This document shows positions 1-60,632 of a stretch of 64,000 nucleotides of DNA, in pieces. The translations under genes were made by a program, and so were the position numbers. Origin of the DNA: a virus. A model generated the notes under the pieces. It had not been told where the DNA came from, ran no database searches, and saw nothing but the letters and a program-made list of their open reading frames with translations. Where the stretch lies: IMG/VR virus record IMGVR_UViG_3300037054_000044, positions 21,206 to 85,205 of that record; one strand, given 5' to 3'. Numbering within the stretch: the first letter of the stretch is position 1; every line of letters starts with the position of its first letter.

Positions 1-3000
1 AACGCTCAAGACCTTCCCGAAGGTGCCTCCCCAAGGTGCTGGGATTGCGACTTCATTATCGGCAGCGTGTTCACTCGCGCTGGCCTGTCCTCAGTCTATT
101 CCTATGCATCATCTTTGAACATCACGATGCTGCAAGTAGGCAGTGGCAGCGTTGGTACATTTTCGTACTCAGGAAATTCGACTCCCACGGTGAACGAAGG
201 GTTCGTGCTTCAGGGATTCTCAGGAAGCGCACAGTCTCTGAACGGGCAAACGATCTTCGTGATCTACGTCAACGCCATCGCTGGTACCTTCACAGCCGAC
301 GTTGCGCTCCCAGCAGGGACGTACATTAACCTTACGGGAACTGCCGTGTCAATCGTTGGGCAGTTCCTTGGGCCTAACATTCCTACCGCAGCCGTGTCCG
401 TTGCGCTGAGCGGTGGAAACGCATGGCAGACGCCCAACAATGTCATGGGTACCGTAGGTTACGCAACGGTACTGTCGGGGTCCACGGTAGTCACATCTCA
501 AGTACCGCTGCTAGCAGGCAGCCTTCCAATAGGCGGCACCGTACTGTGGAACAACCCTAGTTTCCTGAACCACCCCAGCGGAGGCAACACCTTCGCCAGC
601 ATAACCATTGCTGCAGGGCAGGCGCAGAACCCACTCATAGCGTACAACGGTGCACTTGCAGTCCCAGCCGACGCGATTGTTAACGGCGTAACGGTTGCAG
701 TGTACGCTGGTAGCATGAATGCAGGTGGTTCACTGAGCATTCAACTGGCAGATGGAGACACAGACACAGCCGTAGGCACAGCAGTGAACATTCCCTTAGC
801 TGTTAACTCAGCTAAAGTGTACTCTGTTGGTTCTGCATTTTACCAATGGGGCACCACGCTGACGCCAGCCATGTTAAATGGCACGCACCTAGGCGTGATC
901 GTCAAAGCCGCAGTTACCAGTGGATCGACATTCATCTGGGCCAACGGTGTTATAGTCACGGTGTACTACACTTTGGCAGGAAGTTCTCAGGTACTGAAGA
1001 CAACTGGGTATGTGTTCTCTGCCCCCTCGACTGCAGGCGTCACAGGCTTCGGGGTCACATTCCAAGCCTTCACCACAGCGACCAACACACTGAGTGTGCA
1101 GTTGCTGAAGAACGGCATTGCAGTAGGTCAGCCAAAGACGCTGGCTCTTACCACGACTCCCACCATATACTCTTTGGGAGCCCCCAGTGATCTATGGGGC
1201 AGCACGTGGACGTACGCTGACATCAACAACACGAGTTTCGGCGTAGCCATTGTAGCTTCCGATAGCGGCACGGTCTCTATCAATGACCTAGACGTTCTGG
1301 CCTACATTACGCCAGCACAAGTCAATTTCAACTACGTCAAGTCATACATACAAGATGACGGACAGATCGACACCTTGGCACTGGATGCCTCAGGGCTCAT
1401 GTGGAAGGAAGACGTAACGAGTGCCCCCGGAGCACTGGCAGTGGTACTGTCAGGCATACTCCCCGGTTCATTTGCTAAAAGTGCCACAGCCGATAATAAC
1501 GAGTACATCATGTTTTCGGACCTAGCAATAGGAACGGACAGACCCCGCGTCTATTTCAGAGGCGAGCAGTTCCTTCCCCTATCGCAAGGTGGTCCCGGTG
1601 CACCTCCTACGGTCGTGGCATCACAAAGCACGGCAGGCGGTACGTTAGCGGTCACGGATTACTCTTCTGATGGAACGGTTATCACTTTCACCTTCACTGC
1701 TGTTGCTGGCTTCACGCCCGTCATCAACTCCCTGTACACCATTCAAGGGACAGGCGTAGCAGCGCTGGACAACCAGACGTTTGAAGTCGTTGCCCCAGTA
1801 TCTGGCACAACCTTCACAGCGTCGTTCGTGCACACGCCTATTTCCGGCAGCGGATTGGTAGGAGCAACGGCTGTCCCGACAACCTCCTATGGAATCACGT
1901 CCATCGTGCAGGATGGAAACACTTCTAGTACCCCACTTCAAGTTGGTTCTGTTCCATTCAATGGACAGATCACAACGTGGAGTGCTCAAGGACAGTTTGG
2001 AACTGCAGGAACCACGGTACGGTTCTACTACGGCAGTGCAAACTCTCCGCAGAACCAAAGCCTGTTGGACACCATAGCGGCGTATGGCACAGCGTACGTG
2101 TACATCGTAAGTACTGCAGCATGGCCGACAGCCACCACCATAGGAAGTGGAACATACCAAGTTATTAATACTGGAACTGCTATACCGGGATTCGGTGAGC
2201 ACCAACCTGTGCCGTGGTTTGAAATTGCATACGGCTCCTCTAGCGCAGTAGGTGGTCAGCACTGGGGCGATGCTCTAAACACGGGCAACACAGGGCATTG
2301 GCAACAGACGTTGGCAACCGTCACTACTGCAGTGGCTATACCGGGATTAGGTCCGGGTGGCAACCTTACCATACAAGGTGTGAACACATCTTGGGATAAA
2401 ACTTGGACAGTTCTGCAAGCCTTAAAAAGCAATGTGATGAGCATTAGTAGCGTTTCCATGGATGGAAGCGGTGTGGCAACATACGACTACAATGTGACCA
2501 GCGTTCCTGCGGTACTACCTGCGGCTGGTGAAGAAGTCACCATCACAGGCACTACCAATAGTATTGGTGCTCCGGGGATATTCAACACCGTAGGCATCAT
2601 CTCCAGTGCCAGCGGAACACAGTTTACAGTCGCAGGGTTTACACCCCCTGCAGGAGGTATTCCAAGTACCCCCCAGTCGGGAGCACAAGCCTCAACATCT
2701 GGCACACAGTTCACGTTTGATCCGGGTCAGACAGTGCCCAATGGAAGCAGCATCAACACCATCTACGGGAACGTAGGGGCTACTGGTTCAGTGTCCGTTA
2801 CTAACGGGGCATTTACCCCCATCGGACAGGGCACCAGACAGGCCGTGGTGTTCTTCATCACAACCAGCGGCTACGAGACAACGCCGTCTTACCCCGTCAC
2901 CTTCGACACGACGGCTAATTCTAACTTCCTCACTTTTTCAGGTGTTCCAATAGGACCGCCAGACACCGTGGCGAGGGGAATTGCCATCACCGAGGCTGGA

Positions 3001-5016
3001 CAAAACGGAGTACCGGGAGCAAACTTCTACGTCATCATGCAACCTGTTAAGGACATAGTAAACAGCGTGCCAGTGACGTACAGTTCTACGATCATCAACG
3101 ACAACACAACCACCGACAACATCCAGTTTACTTTCACCGATGCAGTTCTCTTGAATTCCAGAGAGATCGACATTCAAGGTGACAATCTGTTTAACTTGAT
3201 TGAGTTGGGAAGCGCAGCTTGGGTTGTGCCATATGTTGGTCGCAACTTCTACGGCTTGCAACTGAACAAGATTGACAACTGGTGGACAGGTGGTTCCCTT
3301 GCGTTTGACCAAGGATACTTGCCTGCCGCTGGAGGTAACATTCAACCCTTGGGATGGTCTACACTGAACAGCGTAGATCAGACACTGATTGTCAGTGCCA
3401 TAACAGGTGATGCTCTGTATATCAAGAACGTGAGTGGAGCAACTGCTCCTATCACAGGAATGGTGTGGCAGACTGCATACCAAGACTACTACGCAACGGC
3501 GATCCTTAAACCCAACGTCACTTACTCGGTGAGGGTGTCAGCATATATACCCTCGGGCATCACTGTTGGAAACTTAGTGATTGACTTGACGGATTACGTC
3601 ACTGGTATAGGTGCAGGGTTTGCACCTACGTCGTATGGCTCTTTCACCGTGCCGTTCTCAAGCATGTCAACTAACGACCAAGTGTTCACTGGGACACTGC
3701 TAACAGTTCCATTCCTGAACCAAGTATCGCCCAACGTACAGATTCGAGTGTATGGGACGAACATGGCAGCGGGAGCGGACCTTGCAGTTGATCGCATCGA
3801 AGTGTTCGAGACACTGACGCCTTACCTAAAGGCGCAGGTGTACGGCTCCTATGCGAACCAGCCCGAAGCAATCGACGCCTCAGGTACAGGCGGCATCATA
3901 GACACAACCTCCGAGAATGCACAGCCGTGCATGGGGGCCTTCGTGATGCACAACCTGTTGTACCTGCTGAAGACGCAAAGCTGGTACTCCACTCAAGACA
4001 ATCCAAACTCCGAACCCGGAGGTTGGGGGCTTAACGAGGTCTCGAATAAAGTAGGGACAATCGGAATCAACTCCTATGACACAGGAGAAGAGTGGTGCAT
4101 CACCGCATGTCGCTCTGGCATCTATGGCTTCGACGGTGGACAACCTACGAAGATATCACAGGAACTGTGGAATCTCTGGGAGTGCATCAACTGGGACGCA
4201 GGGAACACCATCGTGCTACGCAACGACGTGGTATCCAAGCGTCTCTATGTTGCTATTCCATTACCCACAGGGACTGACCCTGCCACAAGCAAAGCGCTCC
4301 CCTCGGTAAAATGGTTGCCAGCGGCTCCATACAATCCAACTCCAAATTCACCAAACGTTATGCTGATGATGAACTATCAAGGACTAGCTGACATCAAAGA
4401 AATGATGATGTCTCCCGAAGTCCATACTACGATGTTCGGCACTTTGGCAGCAGTTGACATGAAGCGGAAATGGACTATCTGGAACATCGCAACCCCAGAC
4501 ATGGAATTCATCATGCAGCAGGACGGAGAGTCAACTCCTCTGTACATCTGCAATGGTATCGCATCTTCCAAGATTTATAAGTTGGATCAGAACAAGTACT
4601 CTGATGACGGCCAGCCAATTAACAGCTTGTACACTACGTACGGGTTCGTCAATGCGGCTAAGGCTGCAACGCTGCCGATCTTTGGATTCCATCGTAAATT
4701 ATACACTGTTTTCCAAACATCCATCACAGGAGGACAACTGTACAAGAGCACGGCAACCAACGCAAAGATTAGAATGTTGCCAAACACTCTCAATCCTAAA
4801 TTCCCGTATACAGTGCCTGTGGGCATACCATTGGTTGATCCTGCTATGGATGACTACTTCCGCCCAATTAACACAGCGGGTAATCGTATGTTTGTGGAGG
4901 TGAGCAGTTTTGCGGTTGGTAGTTGGTTTAATCTTAGTAAGATACTTATTACTGGAAAAGCCGATCCGCACTCTACGCTCAATCCCACGGGCGGTGGGAA
5001 CGCAGGTATTGTGTAA
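1..5016 (+). CDS. Very large virion structural protein, 5' end beyond the window
   Basis: The frame is open from base 1, so the true start lies left of the window; the GTG at 67 is probably internal because the residues before it (DLPEGASPRCWDC) read as protein. At least 1,670 residues are visible. The first two thirds are Gly/Ser/Thr/Val-rich, beta-type sequence with low charge, and the last 500 residues are more mixed, with several Trp and Cys (EEWCITACRSG, NLWECINW). This looks like a large virion or tail-associated protein, perhaps a nozzle or tail-tube component; I recognise no catalytic motif. It ends in TAA and is followed at once by a promoter and an endonuclease gene. Role is inferred from size, composition and position. 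Confidence 0.8.
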   Translation, partial: NAQDLPEGASPRCWDCDFIIGSVFTRAGLSSVYSYASSLNITMLQVGSGSVGTFSYSGNSTPTVNEGFVLQGFSGSAQSLNGQTIFVIYVNAIAGTFTADVALPAGTYINLTGTAVSIVGQFLGPNIPTAAVSVALSGGNAWQTPNNVMGTVGYATVLSGSTVVTSQVPLLAGSLPIGGTVLWNNPSFLNHPSGGNTFASITIAAGQAQNPLIAYNGALAVPADAIVNGVTVAVYAGSMNAGGSLSIQLADGDTDTAVGTAVNIPLAVNSAKVYSVGSAFYQWGTTLTPAMLNGTHLGVIVKAAVTSGSTFIWANGVIVTVYYTLAGSSQVLKTTGYVFSAPSTAGVTGFGVTFQAFTTATNTLSVQLLKNGIAVGQPKTLALTTTPTIYSLGAPSDLWGSTWTYADINNTSFGVAIVASDSGTVSINDLDVLAYITPAQVNFNYVKSYIQDDGQIDTLALDASGLMWKEDVTSAPGALAVVLSGILPGSFAKSATADNNEYIMFSDLAIGTDRPRVYFRGEQFLPLSQGGPGAPPTVVASQSTAGGTLAVTDYSSDGTVITFTFTAVAGFTPVINSLYTIQGTGVAALDNQTFEVVAPVSGTTFTASFVHTPISGSGLVGATAVPTTSYGITSIVQDGNTSSTPLQVGSVPFNGQITTWSAQGQFGTAGTTVRFYYGSANSPQNQSLLDTIAAYGTAYVYIVSTAAWPTATTIGSGTYQVINTGTAIPGFGEHQPVPWFEIAYGSSSAVGGQHWGDALNTGNTGHWQQTLATVTTAVAIPGLGPGGNLTIQGVNTSWDKTWTVLQALKSNVMSISSVSMDGSGVATYDYNVTSVPAVLPAAGEEVTITGTTNSIGAPGIFNTVGIISSASGTQFTVAGFTPPAGGIPSTPQSGAQASTSGTQFTFDPGQTVPNGSSINTIYGNVGATGSVSVTNGAFTPIGQGTRQAVVFFITTSGYETTPSYPVTFDTTANSNFLTFSGVPIGPPDTVARGIAITEAGQNGVPGANFYVIMQPVKDIVNSVPVTYSSTIINDNTTTDNIQFTFTDAVLLNSREIDIQGDNLFNLIELGSAAWVVPYVGRNFYGLQLNKIDNWWTGGSLAFDQGYLPAAGGNIQPLGWSTLNSVDQTLIVSAITGDALYIKNVSGATAPITGMVWQTAYQDYYATAILKPNVTYSVRVSAYIPSGITVGNLVIDLTDYVTGIGAGFAPTSYGSFTVPFSSMSTNDQVFTGTLLTVPFLNQVSPNVQIRVYGTNMAAGADLAVDRIEVFETLTPYLKAQVYGSYANQPEAIDASGTGGIIDTTSENAQPCMGAFVMHNLLYLLKTQSWYSTQDNPNSEPGGWGLNEVSNKVGTIGINSYDTGEEWCITACRSGIYGFDGGQPTKISQELWNLWECINWDAGNTIVLRNDVVSKRLYVAIPLPTGTDPATSKALPSVKWLPAAPYNPTPNSPNVMLMMNYQGLADIKEMMMSPEVHTTMFGTLAAVDMKRKWTIWNIATPDMEFIMQQDGESTPLYICNGIASSKIYKLDQNKYSDDGQPINSLYTTYGFVNAAKAATLPIFGFHRKLYTVFQTSITGGQLYKSTATNAKIRMLPNTLNPKFPYTVPVGIPLVDPAMDDYFRPINTAGNRMFVEVSSFAVGSWFNLSKILITGKADPHSTLNPTGGGNAGIV

Positions 5017-5055: not shown

Positions 5056-5110
5056 GTGAGGCTCAGCCGTGAACTGCGCCTCACTGCAAATTCCTTTCAC
5101 GGAGGAAACT
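5056..5110 (+). promoter_or_regulatory. Pseudoknot leader over the Shine-Dalgarno, copy 1
   Basis: A 7-bp stem GTGAGGC/GCCTCAC (5056-5062 with 5078-5084) closes a 15-base loop. Loop bases CCGTGAA (5067-5073) are perfectly complementary to TTCACGG (5096-5102), whose last two bases are the first bases of the GGAGG ribosome site. The result is an H-type pseudoknot that would mask the Shine-Dalgarno of the HNH gene. Three other endonuclease genes carry the same architecture with different base pairs. This copy lacks the extra upstream hairpin, its place being taken by the promoter. Confidence 0.7.
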
Positions 5111-5710
5111 ATGTTAAAGAAGTGCACAGTTTGCAATGAAGAGTTTGAAGCATATCGGAGCGGCAAATTATGTTCCGATAAGTGTAGAGAAGAAAAAGAA
5201 CTACAAAGAAATAGAAAAAGAGCTAGAACCAAAAAGTACCAAGAGCAGCAACGAAGGTACAGAGAAGAACACCGTGTTGTAGCAGTTAAAAGACAAAGAA
5301 CATACTATGCTACTCACAAAGATCGACTCAATTCTACGCGCAGAAAGAAATATGCTAAAAACCCAGAGCCTGCAAAGCTGCAAGCAAAGACTTGGGCGCA
5401 GAAGAACAAACAGAGAAAAACTGCGACTGACAAGGCGTGGGTGAAATCTAACCCTGACAAGTTTAAAGCTGCGCAGCATAGACATCGCACTGCTAAGAAG
5501 AGCAACGGTGGTTCCTTCACCGCCGCTGAGTGGAACGCTCTGTGTAAGCATTACCACAACCGTTGCCTGTGCTGTGGAAAACGTAGGAAACTCACAGCAG
5601 ACCACGTGATCCCCGTGTCCAAAGGTGGATCGAGCAATATTAGCAACATTCAACCTCTTTGCGGACCTTGCAATTCTAGCAAAGGAATAAAGAGCACAGA
5701 TTTTAGGTAG
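5111..5710 (+). CDS. HNH homing endonuclease
   Basis: The 199-residue protein has an N-terminal zinc-knuckle (CTVCNEEF, CSDKC), a long Lys/Arg-rich middle that probably contacts DNA, and a C-terminal HNH domain: CLCCGK, the catalytic ADHVIP segment, and PLCGPCN as the second Cys pair. The ATG at 5111 is chosen over an upstream in-frame GTG (5069) because GGAGG sits 6 bases before it and the GTG lies inside the leader stem. It stands free between structural genes, as invasive endonucleases do, and is close kin to the protein at 13981-14526. Confidence 0.9.
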   Translation: MLKKCTVCNEEFEAYRSGKLCSDKCREEKELQRNRKRARTKKYQEQQRRYREEHRVVAVKRQRTYYATHKDRLNSTRRKKYAKNPEPAKLQAKTWAQKNKQRKTATDKAWVKSNPDKFKAAQHRHRTAKKSNGGSFTAAEWNALCKHYHNRCLCCGKRRKLTADHVIPVSKGGSSNISNIQPLCGPCNSSKGIKSTDFR

Positions 5711-13980: not shown

Positions 13981-14526
13981 ATGTACAAGAACCCAGAAGA
14001 TAGTAAAGCTAACAACGCAAAGTGGAGAAAGTCTCACAGGGAAGAGGACTTGGCTAGGAAGAGAAAATGGTACCTAAAGAACCGTATTTACTTATTACAG
14101 CAAGCGCACCTTTGGAGAATCAACAATAGAGAAACTTCCCGTGAAAGCAATAGAAAATGGAAGAAGAACAACCCAGAGATAGTACTAAGAGAAGGACGGG
14201 AGTGGAGAAAAAACAATCCAGACAAGGTAAAAGTGAACGACCACAGGCGCTTGGCTCTTAAAGCAGGCAACGGAGGTTCTTTTACCGCTGCTGAGTGGAA
14301 CTCTTTGTGTAAGCACTATAGGCATCACTGTCTGTGCTGCAACAAGAAAAGAAAACTGACAGCAGATCATGTTGTCCCTTTGTCCAAGGGAGGCACAAGT
14401 AATATAGAAAATATTCAACCCTTATGCGGCCCTTGTAATTCAAGGAAGGGAACAAAAACAATAGACTACCGCAAACAAAATCCTGAAAGTCCTGCCATTA
14501 CGCAGGGGAATGCGAGTACATTTTGA
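13981..14526 (+). CDS. HNH homing endonuclease
   Basis: The 181-residue protein has an Arg/Lys/Asn-rich N-terminus with repeated RKWKKNNPE-like units and a C-terminal HNH domain: CLCCNKKRK, TADHVVPLSKGG and PLCGPCNSRKG. It is clearly related to the protein at 5111-5710. The gene follows its pseudoknot leader directly and its stop codon overlaps the TTG start of the next virion gene. Confidence 0.92.
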   Translation: MYKNPEDSKANNAKWRKSHREEDLARKRKWYLKNRIYLLQQAHLWRINNRETSRESNRKWKKNNPEIVLREGREWRKNNPDKVKVNDHRRLALKAGNGGSFTAAEWNSLCKHYRHHCLCCNKKRKLTADHVVPLSKGGTSNIENIQPLCGPCNSRKGTKTIDYRKQNPESPAITQGNASTF

Positions 14527-15991: not shown

Positions 15992-16071
15992 CCAAGGCTT
16001 AGCGGCTTTGGAGCAGAGCAGGGGAGTGTCCTCAAAGCCTCCCCGCTCGACCTACTTTGAGGAGGAACAAT
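15992..16071 (+). promoter_or_regulatory. Pseudoknot leader, copy 4
   Basis: Hairpin A pairs CCAAGGC with GCTTTGG (15992-15998, 16005-16011) around the loop TTAGCG. Hairpin B pairs GGGGAG with CTCCCC (16021-16026, 16039-16044), extended by AGC/GCT. Loop bases CCTCAAAG (16030-16037) are complementary to CTTTGAGG (16055-16062), which overlaps the GAGGAGG ribosome site of the HNH gene. Confidence 0.75.
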
Positions 16072-16794
16072 ATGCCAGCAAAAGGTTTTAGGAAAGAAAA
16101 GTGTATAAGAGGCCATCTCAGGACACCAGACAACGTACGATTAAACGGAAACTGTGTACAGTGCCAATTGCCGTTGCAGTCTCGGACTAAGAAAACCCAC
16201 TGTTTGCGTGGGCATGAAAAAACAAGCGACAACACAACTAAAAGTGGAAATTGCAGAACGTGTTCATTGGAGCACAGCAGAAGTTACTACCAAGAAAACT
16301 TAGAGTCCGAAAAAGAAAAAGCACGATTGCGACAGGCATCGCATCCAGAAGAACGCAGGGAAAGTGTTAAGAGGTTTCTTTCAACGCATCCTGGCTATGC
16401 TTTGGAATACCACAGAGCGTGGGCTAAGGCGAACCCAGATAGAAAAGCTGAGCATGCCCGTAGGACGCGCAAAAAGCACCCTGAAACAAAAAAGGCAGCC
16501 CATCACCGACGTAAAGCATGGAAGTTAGGCAACGGCGGTTCTTGGACGCCCAGAGAGTGGCTAGAACTTAAAGTGGTATATGGGCTTAAGTGCCTATGCT
16601 GTCTTCACAGCGAAGAAGCCTTGTTTGAGGTAGGTTTAAAACTGGTACCAGACCATATACAGCCTTTAGCAAAAGGCGGAAGAAATAGCATTGAAAATTT
16701 GCAACCACTTTGCCACGGCAAGGGTGGATGTAACAACAGTAAGTCTATCAGATGGATAGACTATCGTCCCGGTTTCCCGTTAGAAATTGTGTAA
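16072..16794 (+). CDS. HNH homing endonuclease
   Basis: The 240-residue protein has two Cys-containing N-terminal motifs (KCIRGHLRTPDN, HCLRGHEKTSDN) that look like a duplicated zinc-binding module, a basic linker and a C-terminal HNH domain (CLCCLHSEE, VPDHIQPLAKGG, QPLCHGKGGCNNSKS). ATG 16072 is chosen because GGAGG lies 7 bases upstream; an in-frame start at 16057 falls inside the pseudoknot. It is a free-standing insert between the HTH gene and the tail fibre. Confidence 0.92.
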   Translation: MPAKGFRKEKCIRGHLRTPDNVRLNGNCVQCQLPLQSRTKKTHCLRGHEKTSDNTTKSGNCRTCSLEHSRSYYQENLESEKEKARLRQASHPEERRESVKRFLSTHPGYALEYHRAWAKANPDRKAEHARRTRKKHPETKKAAHHRRKAWKLGNGGSWTPREWLELKVVYGLKCLCCLHSEEALFEVGLKLVPDHIQPLAKGGRNSIENLQPLCHGKGGCNNSKSIRWIDYRPGFPLEIV

Positions 16795-24851: not shown

Positions 24852-24927
24852 AGGGGGATAAGATAACTGACTAATCGGCTCGTTTCCAAAACCTGCAATC
24901 TGGGTTCAAATCCCAGTCGCCCTACCA
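24852..24927 (+). tRNA. tRNA-like gene, probable tRNA-Trp (CCA), weak stems
   Basis: A 76-base cloverleaf with encoded CCA. Acceptor AGGGGGA pairs with TCGCCCT except for one G-G. The T-arm CTGGG-TTCAAAT-CCCAG is perfect, and the D-stem has GAT/ATC. Loop TTCCAAA gives anticodon CCA. The anticodon stem has only three pairs (T-T and C-C mismatches) and G19 is absent. Either a degenerate phage tRNA-Trp or one with altered decoding. 29 bases separate it from the next gene. Confidence 0.5.
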
Positions 24928-26271: not shown

Positions 26272-26560
26272 TTACTCGTTCACTACTTTTACAACGTTCC
26301 AAACGCCATTGTACTTTGGGGAAAACTCTTTGGCGTATTTAAGGTACGCTGTGCCTTTCCATGGAACACTGAATGCCATGCGTTTAACGATGCCTTCTGG
26401 AGTGATCACAAGAAACTTCTGTGGACCGTTACCAGTAGACTCGTTGTCAATGAAAATTCCAATTGACCCGTCAGAGTGCTGCTTCATTGAAAAAACAACT
26501 TCAACTTGTCTCTCGTGTCTGTTCTGAGTTACTGCCTTTAACACTTACATTGAACTTCAT
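26272..26560 (-). CDS. Unknown small protein with an apparent frameshift near its start
   Basis: The expected start is ATG 26560: GGAGAA lies 6 bases before it and it overlaps the stop of the ClpB-like gene (ATGA). That frame reads MKFNVSVK and then runs to a stop after 11 more codons. The long frame (KAVTQNRHERQVEVVFSMKQ... to 26272) is in the next register and only opens at a GTG (26544) with no ribosome site. Removing one G in the run TTAAAGGCAG joins the two into a 95-residue protein. Either an indel or programmed +1 shifting. No function recognised. Confidence 0.55.
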
Positions 26561-27621
26561 AGTATATTCTCCACGTCTGTGAATTTTACATCTGTGCTGC
26601 TCAACTTCTGAATCGAAAACTCGAACTGTGTGTCCTTGGGGCTTGCTTGGTCAATGACCACGGTGTTACCCGGAAGGATTTGCCCAGATGATACTAGGCC
26701 AGCCAACGGCAGCCGCACACGGCGTTCGATGGCACGTTTCAGGTTACGTGCACCGTACTCGATGCTGTAGCCTTCCTCCATTAGCGTGAACTTCGCCGCA
26801 GGAGTTAGCTGGTACAGGAACCTTGCCTTGGTGTAGAACATCTGCTGGACAATGCCCAGTTCGATGTGCATGACTTCCGCCGCCTGTAGCTTTGTCAGAG
26901 TCTTGAAGACCTCCACGTGGTCAAGGCGGTTCATGAACTCAGGTGTGAAGTGCTTCTTGGCAGCCTCCATTGCTACTGCTTTGTTCTTCTCGTCGTCTAG
27001 TACCTCAACTTCATTGCCCTGTTTGAACCCATACTTCTGTGCGTGCATCTGCTTCGCACCGAGGTTCGAGGTCATAATGATGAGCACCTGCTCGAAGTTC
27101 ACCTTGCGGTTGTCGCCTAGCGTGAGCGTAGCCTTATCCAGCACGCCCAGCAGCAATTGCCACAGGGAGTCCGAAGCCTTCTCTATCTCATCGAACAGGA
27201 GCACGCTCAGGGGCATGCCTTCCTTGTGCCACTGGTTTAACGCTTCCTGAGTGAGCAGAGGATGCGTCTCGCGGTGCCCCAGGTAGCCGGGAGGCGAGCC
27301 GATTAGCTTGGCAATCTCATGGCTGTGCTGGAACTCCGCACAGTCAATCTTGATGCAGGCGCGAGCATCCCCTACCAAGCCCTCGCATAGCACCTCCACG
27401 GCGTGCGTCTTGCCTGACCCTGTAGGGCCTAGCAACAGCGCATTGCCTGCTGGCCTGCCAGGGGCACTGAAACCTGATAGATGGGTTGACACCATGTCCA
27501 CCAGAACCTGCGCAGCGCCGTCCTGCCCTACCAGACGCTCGTGCATCTTCTTCAGCAGTGGATCGAGAATGGGATTGCGCTTGGTTAGGTCTAGCACTTT
27601 CTTTGCTGTCCCGGTGGTCAT
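26557..27621 (-). CDS. ClpB/ClpA-type AAA+ ATPase, single D2-like ring domain
   Basis: The 354-residue protein has Walker A GPTGSGKT (near residue 65), Walker B VLLFDEIEKA, sensor 1 IIMTSNLG, and the C-terminal small domain with sensor 2 YGARNLKRAIERR, as in the second ATPase domain of ClpB/ClpA. The Clp N-domain, first ATPase domain and middle domain are absent, so it is about 40 % of a full ClpB. It probably unfolds or remodels a phage or host protein. AGGAGG precedes the ATG. Confidence 0.85.
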   Translation of the reverse strand: MTTGTAKKVLDLTKRNPILDPLLKKMHERLVGQDGAAQVLVDMVSTHLSGFSAPGRPAGNALLLGPTGSGKTHAVEVLCEGLVGDARACIKIDCAEFQHSHEIAKLIGSPPGYLGHRETHPLLTQEALNQWHKEGMPLSVLLFDEIEKASDSLWQLLLGVLDKATLTLGDNRKVNFEQVLIIMTSNLGAKQMHAQKYGFKQGNEVEVLDDEKNKAVAMEAAKKHFTPEFMNRLDHVEVFKTLTKLQAAEVMHIELGIVQQMFYTKARFLYQLTPAAKFTLMEEGYSIEYGARNLKRAIERRVRLPLAGLVSSGQILPGNTVVIDQASPKDTQFEFSIQKLSSTDVKFTDVENIL

Positions 27622-36063: not shown

Positions 36064-38031
36064 TTAGATTGGAATGTTGGCCGTAGCCACGGGAACTGCA
36101 TTGCCGTTCTCCATGGGAATCACATTGTTGAACGTCTGGAGGTTGGCGTTGAGTTTGCCCTTCTCTTCTGCTGAGTAAGAACGGAACTGGCTACGCGCAC
36201 CATCGCAGAATACATAGCAACTACCCCCAGCAGAATACCGGGACAGGCCGACTGTGAGTTTCGTTTTGGGATCAAAGGACTGAGAAGTCTCAGCGAAGCC
36301 AACGGACTGCTCGTCGTATTCTGACTTTTTCATCTCTCCGAGTACGCTACGCCACATTAAAATCATCGAGTCGCAATCCTTGGCGACCTGACTGCTACCG
36401 TCAATATCATTGCTAGATATAATCAGTCCTTTCTCGATGCGTTTTGGCTGCAGGATACGAATCAACTTGATGCGATAATCTTTGGCGATTTTCGCAAACT
36501 GTTTACTGATTTGAGACAGGTGAACTGTGCGGTGCCCTTGGTTGCGCAGAGTATCATCCGCCAACCTCTGCACATTGTCAAACACAACCCATTGAACGCC
36601 GTATCTCCTGATGCAGTCCCTAATCAACTTGAATACATCCTCAGGCTCCTTGACTAATGCCGGATAGGCGAAGTACAAGTCAGCACTACGGGATTGCTGT
36701 ATCTCCCTAGCTTTTACCACAGCAGTCTTCAGTTCTGCCAGTTTAGTTTTAGACTCCTCTGTTCCCGGTGCAGTGATTGTGTCTTCAAAGCCTGTAACAA
36801 GGGAAACCCATTTTCGTGCGAGTCGAGCCGAAGTCATCTCCAGACAAACGAACAATCCGTCTTCTCCATAGGTTTTCACCATATGATCTAGGATGTTGAG
36901 TCCTAAAGTTGTCTTACCTACCTTCTCCGGGGCCACTATGTCTATGACATCCCCCGCTTCGAACCCCACTAGCTTATTCAGTTCAGGCCACGGGGAAATA
37001 TAGGTTGGAGCCAAATCGGCTTTGCCATTCAATTCGTCCTCAAGTTGTTGTAAGGCATCTTTGGAGGAAGTGACCCCTGTTACATCAAAGAATACCGCAC
37101 GTCTCTTCAACTCTTCGAACCCTTCTACTGTGCCTCCACTTTGAAAATAAGCGTTGATGTCTTTGGTTCCCTTCGGCAATACAATTTTCAAGCACTTCTC
37201 AATGCCAATACGGCTGGCGAGTTCCTGCGCTCCTTTGGTACCTGCTTGGTCGCTGTCATAGAGTATGTACACTTTAGGAGCCACACGATCAAGTATTTCG
37301 ATCCATGCTGCCTTGCGTACATTGGCTCCCGGCACTCCCACTACGTTATCCACACCATGGGACATTAAAGCCAGAGCATCTGCTTCTCCTTCTACCATGA
37401 TGATTTCTTTGCACTCTTCATCTAAGGCAGGGGCATTGTACAAACCTGCTTCATGACCGCTGGGGCAAGTGAAATCTTTTTCTGCAGGGGGAAGGGTTCG
37501 CATCTTAGCGAAAGTTACGTTGCCTTCGACTGACAAGTAGGGAATAACCAGTGCGCGTGTCTCCCCCGCTTTGTGGAAGTATACTTTCTCTTTTAAGCCC
37601 AACTTCTGCCGTTCGATAATCTCCTTGGTGAAACCGCGCACGTTAAGTAGATAGTCCATAGCCGAGGCATCCCCTAGAAGGGTAGCGTGGCAAATGTCGG
37701 CATCTGGCAAAGCATCCTGCTTCTCTTTTTTCCCAGACCATTCGGCGCGGGAGTCCACATTTGCTATGCGATCTCCACAGTGTTCTTGCAGAGTCCTCAG
37801 GTTTCCTGTTTTTCCGCAACTGCCGTGATAGCAGAAAAATAACCCATCACGTGTGCTTTCCTCGGGATCATTGCAAGCCACGTAGAACTTGAACCCGCCT
37901 TTTTTGCAGAACGGGCAAGTCTCCACCTGCACCTGTCCACCTGCAGGTCCTTGCCAGTTCCACCCTTTTTTGGTTATATACTGGATTGTGGGGCTGTTCC
38001 TTAATTCTGCTGGGATTGCTTGACTTGGCAT
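36064..38031 (-). CDS. Bifunctional primase-helicase, T7 gp4 type
   Basis: The 655-residue protein has an N-terminal zinc finger (CPFCKKGG, FFCYHGSCG), a TOPRIM domain (IIMVEGEADALAL and VYILYDSDQAG), and a DnaB-like helicase core: Walker A APEKVGKTTL, a later GSSQVAKDCDSMILMWR matching motif H4. It would unwind DNA 5'-3' and lay primers at the fork. ATG 38031 with AAGG upstream is preferred to a GTG six bases earlier. The upstream endonuclease overlaps its start by about 30 bases. Confidence 0.93.
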   Translation of the reverse strand: MPSQAIPAELRNSPTIQYITKKGWNWQGPAGGQVQVETCPFCKKGGFKFYVACNDPEESTRDGLFFCYHGSCGKTGNLRTLQEHCGDRIANVDSRAEWSGKKEKQDALPDADICHATLLGDASAMDYLLNVRGFTKEIIERQKLGLKEKVYFHKAGETRALVIPYLSVEGNVTFAKMRTLPPAEKDFTCPSGHEAGLYNAPALDEECKEIIMVEGEADALALMSHGVDNVVGVPGANVRKAAWIEILDRVAPKVYILYDSDQAGTKGAQELASRIGIEKCLKIVLPKGTKDINAYFQSGGTVEGFEELKRRAVFFDVTGVTSSKDALQQLEDELNGKADLAPTYISPWPELNKLVGFEAGDVIDIVAPEKVGKTTLGLNILDHMVKTYGEDGLFVCLEMTSARLARKWVSLVTGFEDTITAPGTEESKTKLAELKTAVVKAREIQQSRSADLYFAYPALVKEPEDVFKLIRDCIRRYGVQWVVFDNVQRLADDTLRNQGHRTVHLSQISKQFAKIAKDYRIKLIRILQPKRIEKGLIISSNDIDGSSQVAKDCDSMILMWRSVLGEMKKSEYDEQSVGFAETSQSFDPKTKLTVGLSRYSAGGSCYVFCDGARSQFRSYSAEEKGKLNANLQTFNNVIPMENGNAVPVATANIPI

Positions 38032-38591
38032 TTCCACCTTCTCCTATTACGGTTGCTTTCTTTTCTGGTTACCCAGCGTACATTACCCGGTTCATAGTGT
38101 CCGTCATTGTTCCTTCTGTCGAGTATGTAACCCTGAGGTTTGACACCAATTTCTTCAAAGAATTGCTCGAAACTGGTGAATAGAAACCTTATTCCGCGAC
38201 CTCCATAGTTCTTCCAATCCTTACGCCTTGGATTAGTGCAGCGAGTTTGCGCATTCGTGTACGCTCTGTATTCTGGTGTGATTTTACCTCTACGAGTCTG
38301 TCCGTGTTTAAGCGGAGAGTGTCCTAAGATGAAAAACTTAGGCTGTCCCTTAGTGTAGCCGTTTGCGGTTTTTAATCCTGTAGCAATCTCTGTTTTACCA
38401 CCGCATCCACACTGGCATAGACCTATGGGGATGTCAGGATTCAGGTTTTGTTTTGGAGGAGCAGCTTCCCAGCGGTAGGGTTTATGTCCAGACAGGAATA
38501 CCTTAGGCGCTCCCTCTACTTGTCCCCGTTCCTTCCTTGTTTTTGCATAAACTCCCGTTTCTTTGCCGCATCCGCACTGGCATTGTGTCAT
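38001..38591 (-). CDS. HNH homing endonuclease with duplicated zinc knuckle
   Basis: 196 residues. Two copies of a CxCGCGxxTxxxxGxxxxxGxxKGxPKxFxxGH knuckle (MTQCQCGCGKETGVYAK and GLCQCGCGGKTEIATG), then the HNH block YGGRGIRFLFTSFEQFFEEI and LDRRNNDGHYEPGNVRWV. GGAGG before ATG. It sits directly before the primase-helicase gene, which it overlaps. Confidence 0.88.
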   Translation of the reverse strand: MTQCQCGCGKETGVYAKTRKERGQVEGAPKVFLSGHKPYRWEAAPPKQNLNPDIPIGLCQCGCGGKTEIATGLKTANGYTKGQPKFFILGHSPLKHGQTRRGKITPEYRAYTNAQTRCTNPRRKDWKNYGGRGIRFLFTSFEQFFEEIGVKPQGYILDRRNNDGHYEPGNVRWVTRKESNRNRRRWKCQVKQSQQN

Positions 38592-43795: not shown

Positions 43796-44380
43796 CTATT
43801 CTGTTCCTCCCATTACGAACATATGGAAGCAGGCTTGGTGCTTCTCCTCTTCAACTATTGCTCGATTCATTACCACTTCGTAACTGAGCACCACCCTCAT
43901 CCATTGCAATTGTGCTCTGGTCATGCCACGTTTTGCTATGTCCACAGTACTGCCAGTTTCATGAGATGAAGCAGTCTCCCCGTCCACGGGCGCGGCGTTC
44001 CTGTTGCGTTTGCGTAGCCGTCGCTGTGTATCTGCATCGCGCACTGCGCTGTCAATCGTTAGGTACTTACCGAAACGCAGACGATATGCTTCGGACAACG
44101 TAAGGAGAAATTGGACCGTTGTCGGACGCGCATATCGTCTGCTGAGAGGCAGGCTGGGCGCTACGTGAAGCCCTAGGGTTTCAGGGAGGGCGATGAGAAC
44201 TCCACGGCGTACTGCTTCCTGCACTTCATCTTCATTTTGAAATCTCTGCAGGTTCATCTGGTCTGCGCACAGGTTTTGCCGTACGAGTGAACTGTGGGAC
44301 GGGGTTATGGGAGTCCGCTTGGCGAGTGACCGTGCCTGTGCGGTGCCAATCAGCAATAGGATCATCAAAGCAGTTCGCAT
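43796..44380 (-). CDS. DUF5715 secreted peptidase-like protein
   Basis: The 194-residue protein has a signal peptide (MRTALMILLLIGTAQA) and the DUF5715 pattern: SLVRQNLCADQMNLQRFQNE, YARPTTVQFLLTLSEAYRLR, DSAVRDADTQRRLRKRN, GETASSHETGSTVDIAKRG and QACFHMFVM. The His and Asp in SSHETGSTVD and the final HMF resemble the zinc ligands of VanY/M15 peptidoglycan peptidases. It may cut cell-wall peptides. In my knowledge the family is largely acidobacterial, which points to the host. AGGA precedes the ATG. Confidence 0.78.
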   Translation of the reverse strand: MRTALMILLLIGTAQARSLAKRTPITPSHSSLVRQNLCADQMNLQRFQNEDEVQEAVRRGVLIALPETLGLHVAPSLPLSRRYARPTTVQFLLTLSEAYRLRFGKYLTIDSAVRDADTQRRLRKRNRNAAPVDGETASSHETGSTVDIAKRGMTRAQLQWMRVVLSYEVVMNRAIVEEEKHQACFHMFVMGGTE

Positions 44381-44392
44381 AGCAGTCCTCCA

Positions 44393-44653
44393 TTAGTTTG
44401 GTCTCCATCCATTCAGCCTTGTAATGATGTGCCCTACAATCTCTAAATCGCCTCGGTGCACAGCTTCATGGCATTGATTACACAAAGTGAGTAAGTTCTC
44501 TGCTGTGTCCTCGCCTTGGTGTGACCTGTACACAACGTGATGGCAGTGCAGGTTGCCACGCATCCCGCATGATCTGCACTTCCACCCATCCCTTTGCATT
44601 ACGCTCCTACAGAGCGCATGGTATTCCTTTTCAGGCAGGCGTAGGTTTGACAT
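44393..44653 (-). CDS. Small canonical HNH endonuclease
   Basis: 86 residues consisting of one HNH domain: GWKCRSCGMRGNLHCHHVVY, then ENLLTLCNQCHEAVH. It lacks the accessory modules of the other endonucleases and resembles host-type or packaging-type HNH nucleases. Its start overlaps the preceding small gene. Confidence 0.88.
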   Translation of the reverse strand: MSNLRLPEKEYHALCRSVMQRDGWKCRSCGMRGNLHCHHVVYRSHQGEDTAENLLTLCNQCHEAVHRGDLEIVGHIITRLNGWRPN

Positions 44654-46249: not shown

Positions 46250-46450
46250 TTAGAAGTACTTGGGTCCGACTGGGTTCAATCCCTCAGCGTGCTTCGGTTG
46301 TGGCTTCAGGTCTTCGATGCGAAGGCTGCGTCGAAAGTAGTTGAACCTATCGTCTATGAACTGCTTTGCCGAGTAATTGATGTTGTCGTCTTCAGCAGGC
46401 AATGTGTGGTACGCATTTGCCAACCTTAGCATTATTTGTAGTTTGTTCAT
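46250..46450 (-). CDS. 66-residue unknown protein
   Basis: AAAGGAG before ATG 46450. Helical start (MNKLQIMLRLANAYHTL), basic and aromatic middle (DRFNYFRRSLRIED). It lies immediately downstream of the tmRNA coding piece. Confidence 0.6.
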   Translation of the reverse strand: MNKLQIMLRLANAYHTLPAEDDNINYSAKQFIDDRFNYFRRSLRIEDLKPQPKHAEGLNPVGPKYF

Positions 46451-46527
46451 GTGGTCTCCTTTGGGATTCGCATCGGGATACCGGAGGTCTTGCCCCCGGT
46501 CCCGTGCGATGGAACGTCACTCCTGCA

Positions 46528-46587
46528 TTAGCAACCTGCAGCAGCGCCCATGGCCTTAGCCTTGGGAACGACAATGTTTTCATTGGC
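46528..46587 (-). other. tmRNA tag reading frame
   Basis: Resume codon GCC at 46587, then 19 codons and TAA: ANENIVVPKAKAMGAAAGC. ANEN is typical of tag starts. The end -GAAAGC lacks the hydrophobic-Ala-Ala end that ClpXP recognises in ordinary tags. Confidence 0.65.
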
Positions 46588-46684
46588 ATTTCTTGGTTTT
46601 GGCTCTCCGTAACGTGGCGAGACAGAATCCGACTCGAAGTTATCCCCTTGACATCACCGTCGAAGCCGTGACAGGCCCATCAGC

Positions 46685-46755
46685 GCCACTTACCTTACCC
46701 CGCACATAGGCGTCCCTGATGCGGATAGGGTTGATGACCTTGGTTGGTAAGTGGC
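46685..46755 (-). repeat. 10-bp inverted repeat in the tmRNA intervening segment
   Basis: GCCACTTACC and GGTAAGTGGC (46685-46694, 46746-46755) are perfect arms lying just inside the two ends to be processed (CCA at 46758, 5' G at 46678). They would extend the acceptor stem in the precursor and close the intervening loop. Confidence 0.75.
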
Positions 46756-46907
46756 TCTGGTGGACCTGACGGGAGTTGAACCCGTGTCCGATAATGTAGC
46801 AGATAACCATTGACGAGCGTAAATTAAGGCAGCAGAACATCCACCGCGTGCGCCACGGCGTTGCTTAGGTGTCCACACTTTTAGGAGTCTACTACCATCT
46901 CGTTGCC

Positions 46908-47099
46908 CTACTTCTGGCGAACTTTGTACTGTACGCTCGGGTACTGTAGCTTCGATACATCTGCTGCGGCTTGCGCCAGTTCGCGGGTCTCGAAGTATCC
47001 CGGTACGCTGAATGAGCGGACGAACTTCTCATCTGACCCGTTCTTTTTCAGAATGATGAACCGTGTAACGTGCTTGCCTTCCGGCGTGCGTGATGCCAT
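46908..47099 (-). CDS. 63-residue unknown protein
   Basis: AAAGGAG before ATG 47099. Mixed alpha/beta with KHVTRFIILKKNGSDEKFV, then FETRELAQAAADVSKLQ; the shape recalls a small strand-strand-helix module. It lies just upstream of the tmRNA. Confidence 0.6.
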   Translation of the reverse strand: MASRTPEGKHVTRFIILKKNGSDEKFVRSFSVPGYFETRELAQAAADVSKLQYPSVQYKVRQK

Positions 47100-60143: not shown

Positions 60144-60632
60144 CTAGAAGTTTGTGCGTGCGAACCTGCCAAACAACCGCTTTGCGGCTGCATCGTGCGC
60201 TAGTGCGGCTGCCTTGGCTGTAAGGTGCAAGCCAAGGGATACATGCTTGCCTTTGTAGGAAAGCTGTGCAGCCCACTTACCTCTCTGCTTGTGCCACGTT
60301 ACGCCTTTGTACCCCGATGTGTTGTTGATTTGCTTCCCTCTGTTTTGCAAGTTCTCAGCATGCGTTGCTTGGCGTAAGTTGCTGCGCATGTTGTTTAATC
60401 CGTTGCCATCCTTGTGATCCACTTTGATAGTGGGGTCAGTGACACCAAGAATGAAACGGTGCAGTTGCTCCGTGTGCGATTTGCCCTTGCCTTCATAGGA
60501 CATGCGCTTGGCGTATATGGTAGTACGATCTTTGCGCTTGTCTACGTGCCATGCATAGCCTTGCATGCATCGTACATAATCTTTGTTCGATACCAAGGCA
60601 AAATAGCCTTGCGATAGTTTGATGCTGCGCAC
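60144..60632 (-). CDS. HNH-AP2 homing endonuclease
   Basis: 162 residues. HNH core QLHRFILGV, IKVDHKDGNGLNNMRSNLRQ, then AP2 domain NNTSGYKGVTWHKQRGKWAA to AAALAHDAAAKRLFG. GTG start with GAGGA upstream, sharing a base with the previous TAG. It is the intact form of the remnant at 48095-48322. Confidence 0.9.
   Translation of the reverse strand: MRSIKLSQGYFALVSNKDYVRCMQGYAWHVDKRKDRTTIYAKRMSYEGKGKSHTEQLHRFILGVTDPTIKVDHKDGNGLNNMRSNLRQATHAENLQNRGKQINNTSGYKGVTWHKQRGKWAAQLSYKGKHVSLGLHLTAKAAALAHDAAAKRLFGRFARTNF

Follow-up and report, generated by a model that had tools for sequence, protein, structure and literature searches.

A group of soil phages tied by their primase-helicase to phages isolated on Acidobacteriota carries a circularly permuted tmRNA gene, and in the genome analysed here this gene specifies a tag peptide without the canonical Ala-Ala end and is accompanied by a phage-encoded Clp-type unfoldase. 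These features are new, while permuted tmRNAs as such were already known from phages. tmRNA is the RNA that releases stalled ribosomes and tags their incomplete proteins, and the reason for a phage tmRNA is an open question, since the hosts already have one. We consider the chances even that the phage owns both the writer and the reader of a degradation signal, which would operate through host SmpB and host ClpP. The DNA analysed (hereafter the window) is a stretch of 64,000 nucleotides and forms part of an 85,205-base IMG/VR virus record (record G000). The features discussed are collected in Table 1.

Table 1. Features of the window that bear on the permuted tmRNA and the Clp-type unfoldase (window coordinates).
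Feature	Position	Strand	Basis
Single-ring Clp/Hsp100 D2-type AAA+ unfoldase, 354 aa, YGF at the ClpP-docking loop position	26557..27621	-	Pfam, structures, alignment, AlphaFold
DNA primase-helicase, marker for placing the phage	36064..38037	-	primase comparison and tree
Hairpin TCGCACGGGACCGGGGGCAAGACCTCCGGTATCCCGATGCGA 3' of the tag, probable end of the coding piece	46468..46509	-	read directly from the sequence
tmRNA coding piece with 5' tRNA-like domain, P2, pseudoknot 1, the tag frame and the hairpin 3' of it; 3' end placed by inference	46468..46678	-	ARAGORN, Rfam, sequence
Tag frame ANENIVVPKAKAMGAAAGC and stop TAA; resume codon GCC at 46587	46528..46587	-	ARAGORN, sequence
Intervening sequence, predicted to be removed on maturation; closing 10-bp stem GCCACTTACC/GGTAAGTGGC	46679..46757	-	shuffle comparison
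tmRNA acceptor piece (3' tRNA-like domain with T-arm, the 3' strands of P2 and of the acceptor stem, and an encoded CCA whose last base is 46758); 5' end at 46818 approximate, ARAGORN gene start at 46850	46758..46818	-	ARAGORN, Rfam, sequence
63-aa ORF that immediately precedes the tmRNA, same placement in relative G001 (L018); no PHROG match	46908..47099	-	ORF lists

It is nearly certain that window positions 46437-46850 (- strand) hold a real circularly permuted tmRNA gene. The initial annotation had proposed a phage-encoded, two-piece tmRNA here and had suggested ARAGORN and the Rfam permuted model as checks, and both match. ARAGORN calls a permuted tmRNA with the tag ANENIVVPKAKAMGAAAGC, and the Rfam family RF04321 (tmRNA_permuted, which merges RF01849, RF01850 and RF01851) scores 75.9 bits (E 9e-13) against a cut-off of 47 bits, over the full length of the model (positions 1-213). 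The reversed domain order that had been reported is visible in the sequence: on the - strand the 3' domain (T-arm, CAGGTCC, A and CCA ending at 46758) is followed, after 79 nt, by the 5' domain (GGGCCTG from 46678). The acceptor stem GGGCCTG/CAGGTCC, described as 7 bp with one G-U, pairs at all seven positions with the G-U as third pair and is completed by an encoded CCA; G3-U70 is the alanine identity position. The P2 strands that had been named as complementary are present, and the free duplex has an energy of -25.4 kcal/mol (z = -2.2 against shuffles), P2 being weaker in several relatives.

The same architecture is found across the relatives of the window phage. The acceptor stem pairs at 7/7 positions in every correctly parsed relative; its inner pairs vary in a compensatory manner, and the G-U at pair 3 is kept in 23 of 24 distinct relatives, the exception being G011, which the acceptor script misparsed along with G012 (the tags of these two were read from the 5' half only). 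The 79-nt intervening sequence of the window has a closing stem of 10 bp without mismatch, a length equalled in 1 of 1000 shuffles, and the closing stem is longer than 99% of shuffles in 12 of the 24 intervening sequences from relatives. Similar closing stems occur in the permuted tmRNAs of Microvirga and of gammaproteobacterial phages, so that the closing stem is to be seen as a usual feature; as a special feature of the window group it was ruled out, being present in other permuted genes.

Among phage records, the window primase-helicase is nearest to those of Tunturiibacter phages Tunturi_3 (46% identity) and Tunturi_4 (41%). Both of these phages infect Acidobacteriota, and from this proximity we infer an acidobacterial host for the window phage. 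RF04321 exceeds its cut-off in six of the nine first relatives and in 21 of another 46 records, a set that includes many fragments. The initial annotation had named as evidence against itself a loss of the tmRNA from relatives that keep the surrounding genes, and these 27 further records present a different picture. ARAGORN misses most permuted tmRNAs of this group. Tunturi_3, Tunturi_4 and Tunturi_5 each carry an unannotated permuted tmRNA; for example, that of the jumbo phage Tunturi_5 (PP885688) lies in an annotation gap at 157899-158195 (-) and has the tag AKNSPVVRGTAKVLSFARKFVPAVSSTRAFAMAA. Tunturi_1 and Tunturi_2 have no permuted tmRNA by RF04321, and the paper on the Tunturi phages does not mention tmRNA (PMC11924767). 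The permuted tmRNA is well supported as a trait shared across this family of soil phages, whose isolated relatives infect Acidobacteriota, and its presence in three of five isolated acidobacterial Tunturi phages makes the tmRNA part testable in culture.

Phages often integrate at tmRNA genes, and fragments of such genes are carried by prophages (PMC9004378); the window gene could on these grounds be a passenger or a decaying host gene, such as an attachment-site remnant. This explanation is extremely improbable: the gene is complete, its acceptor stem and tag are intact, a permuted tmRNA is present in 22 of the 24 group records of at least 80 kb, a conservation that already contradicts it, and the likely host class has the other, one-piece form. 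No prophages of the window phage family were found in bacterial genomes by primase alignment, and blastn of the window tmRNA against phage records gave short matches only, mostly tRNA- or tmRNA-like.

Several other elements of these genomes were recorded. Proteins with an RF-1 domain and an intact GGQ are encoded at 43946-44293 in Tunturi_4, where the gene abuts the unannotated permuted tmRNA, and at 82469-82807 (-) in Tunturi_3; as a part of the system such a protein was ruled out, being absent from the window record and four relatives. The window has a tRNA-Trp (CCA) gene at 24852-24927 (+), and tRNA-Trp also occurs in several relatives. Small HNH-, GIY-YIG- and AP2-like ORFs, recognised by eye, are scattered through the window (e.g., 5069-5710, 13981-14526, 16057-16794, 44393-44653 and 60144-60632) and probably encode homing endonucleases. 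To the left of the window in the same record, a run of ORFs resembles by eye glycosyltransferases and nucleotide-sugar enzymes (L308, 7479-16704). An Rfam search of the window found no glutamine riboswitch.

The likely hosts use a different form of the molecule. The host class was taken as the GTDB class to which an Acidobacteriaceae genome belongs; a one-piece tmRNA is present in 177 of 200 genomes there, with tags mostly of nine residues (e.g., ANNNLALAA) that end in Ala-Ala in 33 of 36 ARAGORN calls. The sole RF04321 hit in 399 host-class genomes comes from a tandemly duplicated one-piece tmRNA (L247, G152:C13:202144-202387), and three hits in 109 Acidobacteriota genomes consist of a tRNA-Asp followed by a one-piece tmRNA and are likewise false. 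No genuine permuted tmRNA was found in Acidobacteriota genomes among the best few candidates scored per genome, a depth at which a rare case could escape. A host origin was ruled out to this depth of search, the RF04321 hits in Acidobacteriota being false on inspection and the likely host class using the one-piece form. One sequence titled Rhodanobacteraceae (L194, CAJCHN010000145.1) has an acidobacterial-type 16S start, its phylum sample contains the acidobacterial genome G070, and it is probably mislabelled.

With a one-piece host class, the permuted form could have arisen a fourth time, independently, from the acidobacterial one-piece gene, and the window tmRNA fits none of the three lineage models well: its best clan match, beta_tmRNA (RF01850), reaches 41.7 bits against a cut-off of 84, and no alpha_tmRNA (RF01849) score is reported for it beside this best match, although the relatives L016, L110 and L104 pass the latter model. 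We nevertheless judge a fourth invention very improbable, because a pseudoknot motif of the alphaproteobacterial GCAACAGAA type is kept in nine of 24 relatives and in none of 35 host genes, even though the window tmRNA itself lacks it. The distribution of this motif favours horizontal transfer over a fresh permutation event, in a comparison that took in one alphaproteobacterial (L295) and one betaproteobacterial (L296) permuted gene.

The tag itself sets the window phage and its closest relatives apart. The window tag ends in Ala-Ala-Ala-Gly-Cys in place of the canonical Ala-Ala C-terminal end of ssrA, and on the primase tree the window groups with G001, G002 and G017 (98/98 support), whose tags, like that of the window, all end in AMGAAAG and one variable residue. 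The distance from the 5' end to the resume codon is 72-98 nt across relatives. Within the ten-codon core PKAKAMGAAA, comparisons among the window, G001 and G002 show 2, 4 and 4 synonymous codons and 0 non-synonymous ones, and since the core codons differ only synonymously, it is the peptide that is conserved. An altered tag in the window clade is therefore well supported. With the Ala-Ala end gone, the window tag is expected to be recognised poorly by host ClpX. The initial annotation had noted neither this tag end nor the closing stem of the intervening sequence nor the Clp unfoldase.

The unfoldase of the window belongs to the Clp family by several lines of evidence. It matches Pfam AAA_2 and ClpB_D2-small and has Walker A and B motifs, a GYLG pore loop and a C-terminal small domain; its nearest solved structures are ClpB, ClpC and ClpA, and its AlphaFold model has a pLDDT of 85. 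At a loop absent from ClpB, the window protein has YGF and its homologues have YGF, FGF, IGF, MGF or LGY (G001), a position that appears from the alignment to correspond to the ClpP-docking loop. These tripeptides resemble the ClpP-docking ones IGF of ClpX, IGL of ClpA and VGF of ClpC, for which the pattern [LIV]-G-[FL] was taken. A motif scan saw no ClpP in the window and no SmpB was found in 23 phage records, for which reasons the use of host ClpP and host SmpB is assumed.

The type of tag and the presence of the unfoldase go together. The window Clp family is present in eight of 37 phage records (G000, G001, G002, G008, G015, G017, G023 and G050). In the set of 23 large records that have a permuted tmRNA, tags ending in M-x-A-A-[A/C](-G-x) occur in 8/8 records with Clp and in 0/15 without it (G007, G016, G018, G026, G032, G033, G036, G038, G040, G041, G044, G047, Tunturi_3, Tunturi_4 and Tunturi_5), with -G-x following the motif in seven of the eight; records too incomplete or ending too near the primase were left out of this count (G005, G009-G012 and G024). 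Of these, G005 and G011 have tags ending in KAMAVAA and KAMAAHA on contigs that stop short of the clp site; from the tag length and the M close to the end, the pairing would predict Clp in both. Tags are 12-21 aa long in the records with Clp versus 26-37 aa in those without, and their last residue in the former varies (C, V, R or A). Fisher's test gives p = 2e-6 when shared descent is ignored, and the records represent about four lineages rather than 23 independent cases. The tmRNA might be a plain supplementary one of known kind, with Clp and tag type associated only through shared phage descent, as the clustering by descent of the label counts on the primase tree and the wide spread of permuted tmRNAs in phages would lead one to expect. 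We hold this to be unlikely, since the primase tree needs at least two separate switches and the same pair recurs as an adjacent cassette in other phages.

In the window the tmRNA and clp are 19 kb apart, and the adjacent cases came from a Clp-family search of viral contigs. In L315, L318, L325 and L326, a permuted tmRNA precedes clp at a distance of no more than about 0.6 kb and in the same orientation, with one small ORF between the two in L315 and L318; the tags are ANTNVLAMSAAA, ADTKVFAMAA, ANTNVLVMSAAA and VTAKAKTMSAAA, respectively. A search with the tag pattern ANTNVL[AV]MSAAA alone returned eight contigs (three already known and five new), which are not all independent because several are near-copies of each other. 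Clp adjoins the tmRNA in six of them and is elsewhere in the genome in G023, and the eighth is a fragment too short to judge, so that seven of seven testable contigs have clp. L398 has the tag and Clp of L315 but a different tRNA-like domain. Two loci with Clp depart from the tag motif, namely L318 (AMAA) and L323 (YANA); L323 has, immediately after its permuted tmRNA, another gene that resembles a permuted tmRNA but shows no clear tag frame (2414-3100 for the two), and its Clp gene is 6 kb off. An association of tmRNA with Clp in phages may extend beyond these cases, as more distant phages have a one-piece tmRNA within a few kilobases of a Clp ATPase gene: it lies about 2-6 kb downstream in L351, L356, L361, L369 and L376, and also in L330, L339, L368 and L370, with tags near 21 aa where read and GOLLD RNA in two of these contigs. 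Among the open-access results listed, no paper on a pairing of phage tmRNA tag and Clp was found.

These data bear on a further explanation, in which ribosomes are rescued without destruction of the product, the tag having lost its Ala-Ala end in order to escape degradation and the Clp having an unrelated job. The AAAGC end of the window tag and the AAAG[C/V/R] ends of its clade, set against the Ala-Ala ends usual in the host class, are what such a role would produce. Strict co-occurrence of Clp and tag and their adjacency in other phages are not, and a tag that is merely to be ignored need not be conserved residue by residue; we regard this explanation as rather unlikely.

A pathway with a phage-owned writer and reader can be outlined as follows. 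One precursor transcript would be made, from which host tRNA-processing enzymes would excise the 79-nt intervening sequence, leaving a tmRNA in two pieces that stay joined by pairing in the acceptor stem and P2. Once aminoacylated with alanine and in complex with host SmpB, this RNA would free stalled ribosomes and add the phage tag ...KAMGAAAGC instead of the nine-residue host tag of the ...ALAA type; the initial annotation had suggested that it might serve to keep ribosomes of the host free late in infection. The single-ring phage Clp, docked through its YGF loop on host ClpP, would then read this tag. Tentatively, and with somewhat less confidence than in phage ownership of writer and reader, we propose that the pathway is private, the tag being unreadable for host ClpX and read by phage Clp on host ClpP, and that writer and reader evolve jointly and pass between phages as a pair; host ClpX could, however, read the tags of L315, L325, L326 and G050, because those still end in Ala-Ala. 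If true, a matched tag and unfoldase would give the phage control over which stalled-ribosome proteins are destroyed, a testable answer to the question of why it has a tmRNA, and would constitute a natural orthogonal pair of degron and unfoldase.

The window tmRNA resembles the permuted tmRNAs of RF04321 in gene order, the G3-U70 acceptor stem, encoded CCA, the intervening sequence with its closing stem and the tag frame. It differs from them in being borne by a phage group tied to Acidobacteriota (whose sampled genomes have one-piece genes), in the AAAGC end of its tag and in falling below the lineage-model cut-offs. The initial annotation had stated that it knew of no permuted tmRNA described in a phage of this kind, which holds for acidobacterial phages only. 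Two-piece forms make up 53 of 133 unique phage tmRNA structures, mostly marine or aquatic, according to Buchholz et al. 2022 (PMC9004378), and a 2025 tmRNA database lists 79 phage sequences (PMC11915505). The marine phages Melnitz and Mosig, compared by description, share with the window phage a phage-encoded permuted tmRNA; unlike it, the marine phage tmRNAs follow host lineages that have the permuted form, and the available text describes no pairing with a Clp unfoldase (PMC9004378). Phages of Xanthomonas, Stenotrophomonas and Alcaligenes (L290-L294, L297 and L298) proved to carry permuted tmRNAs as well, some of them with an existing tmRNA annotation; their tags, unlike that of the window, are 10-14 aa long and mostly end in Ala-Ala. 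The window Clp has the Walker motifs, GYLG pore loop, C-terminal small domain and fold of the D2 ring of ClpA, ClpC and ClpB, but consists of a single ring of 354 aa with no N-domain or D1, and has YGF where ClpA has IGL and ClpC has VGF. Pseudomonas phage PA5oct likewise encodes a Clp ATPase; in contrast to the window phage, it has a longer ClpA-type ATPase together with a ClpP of its own.
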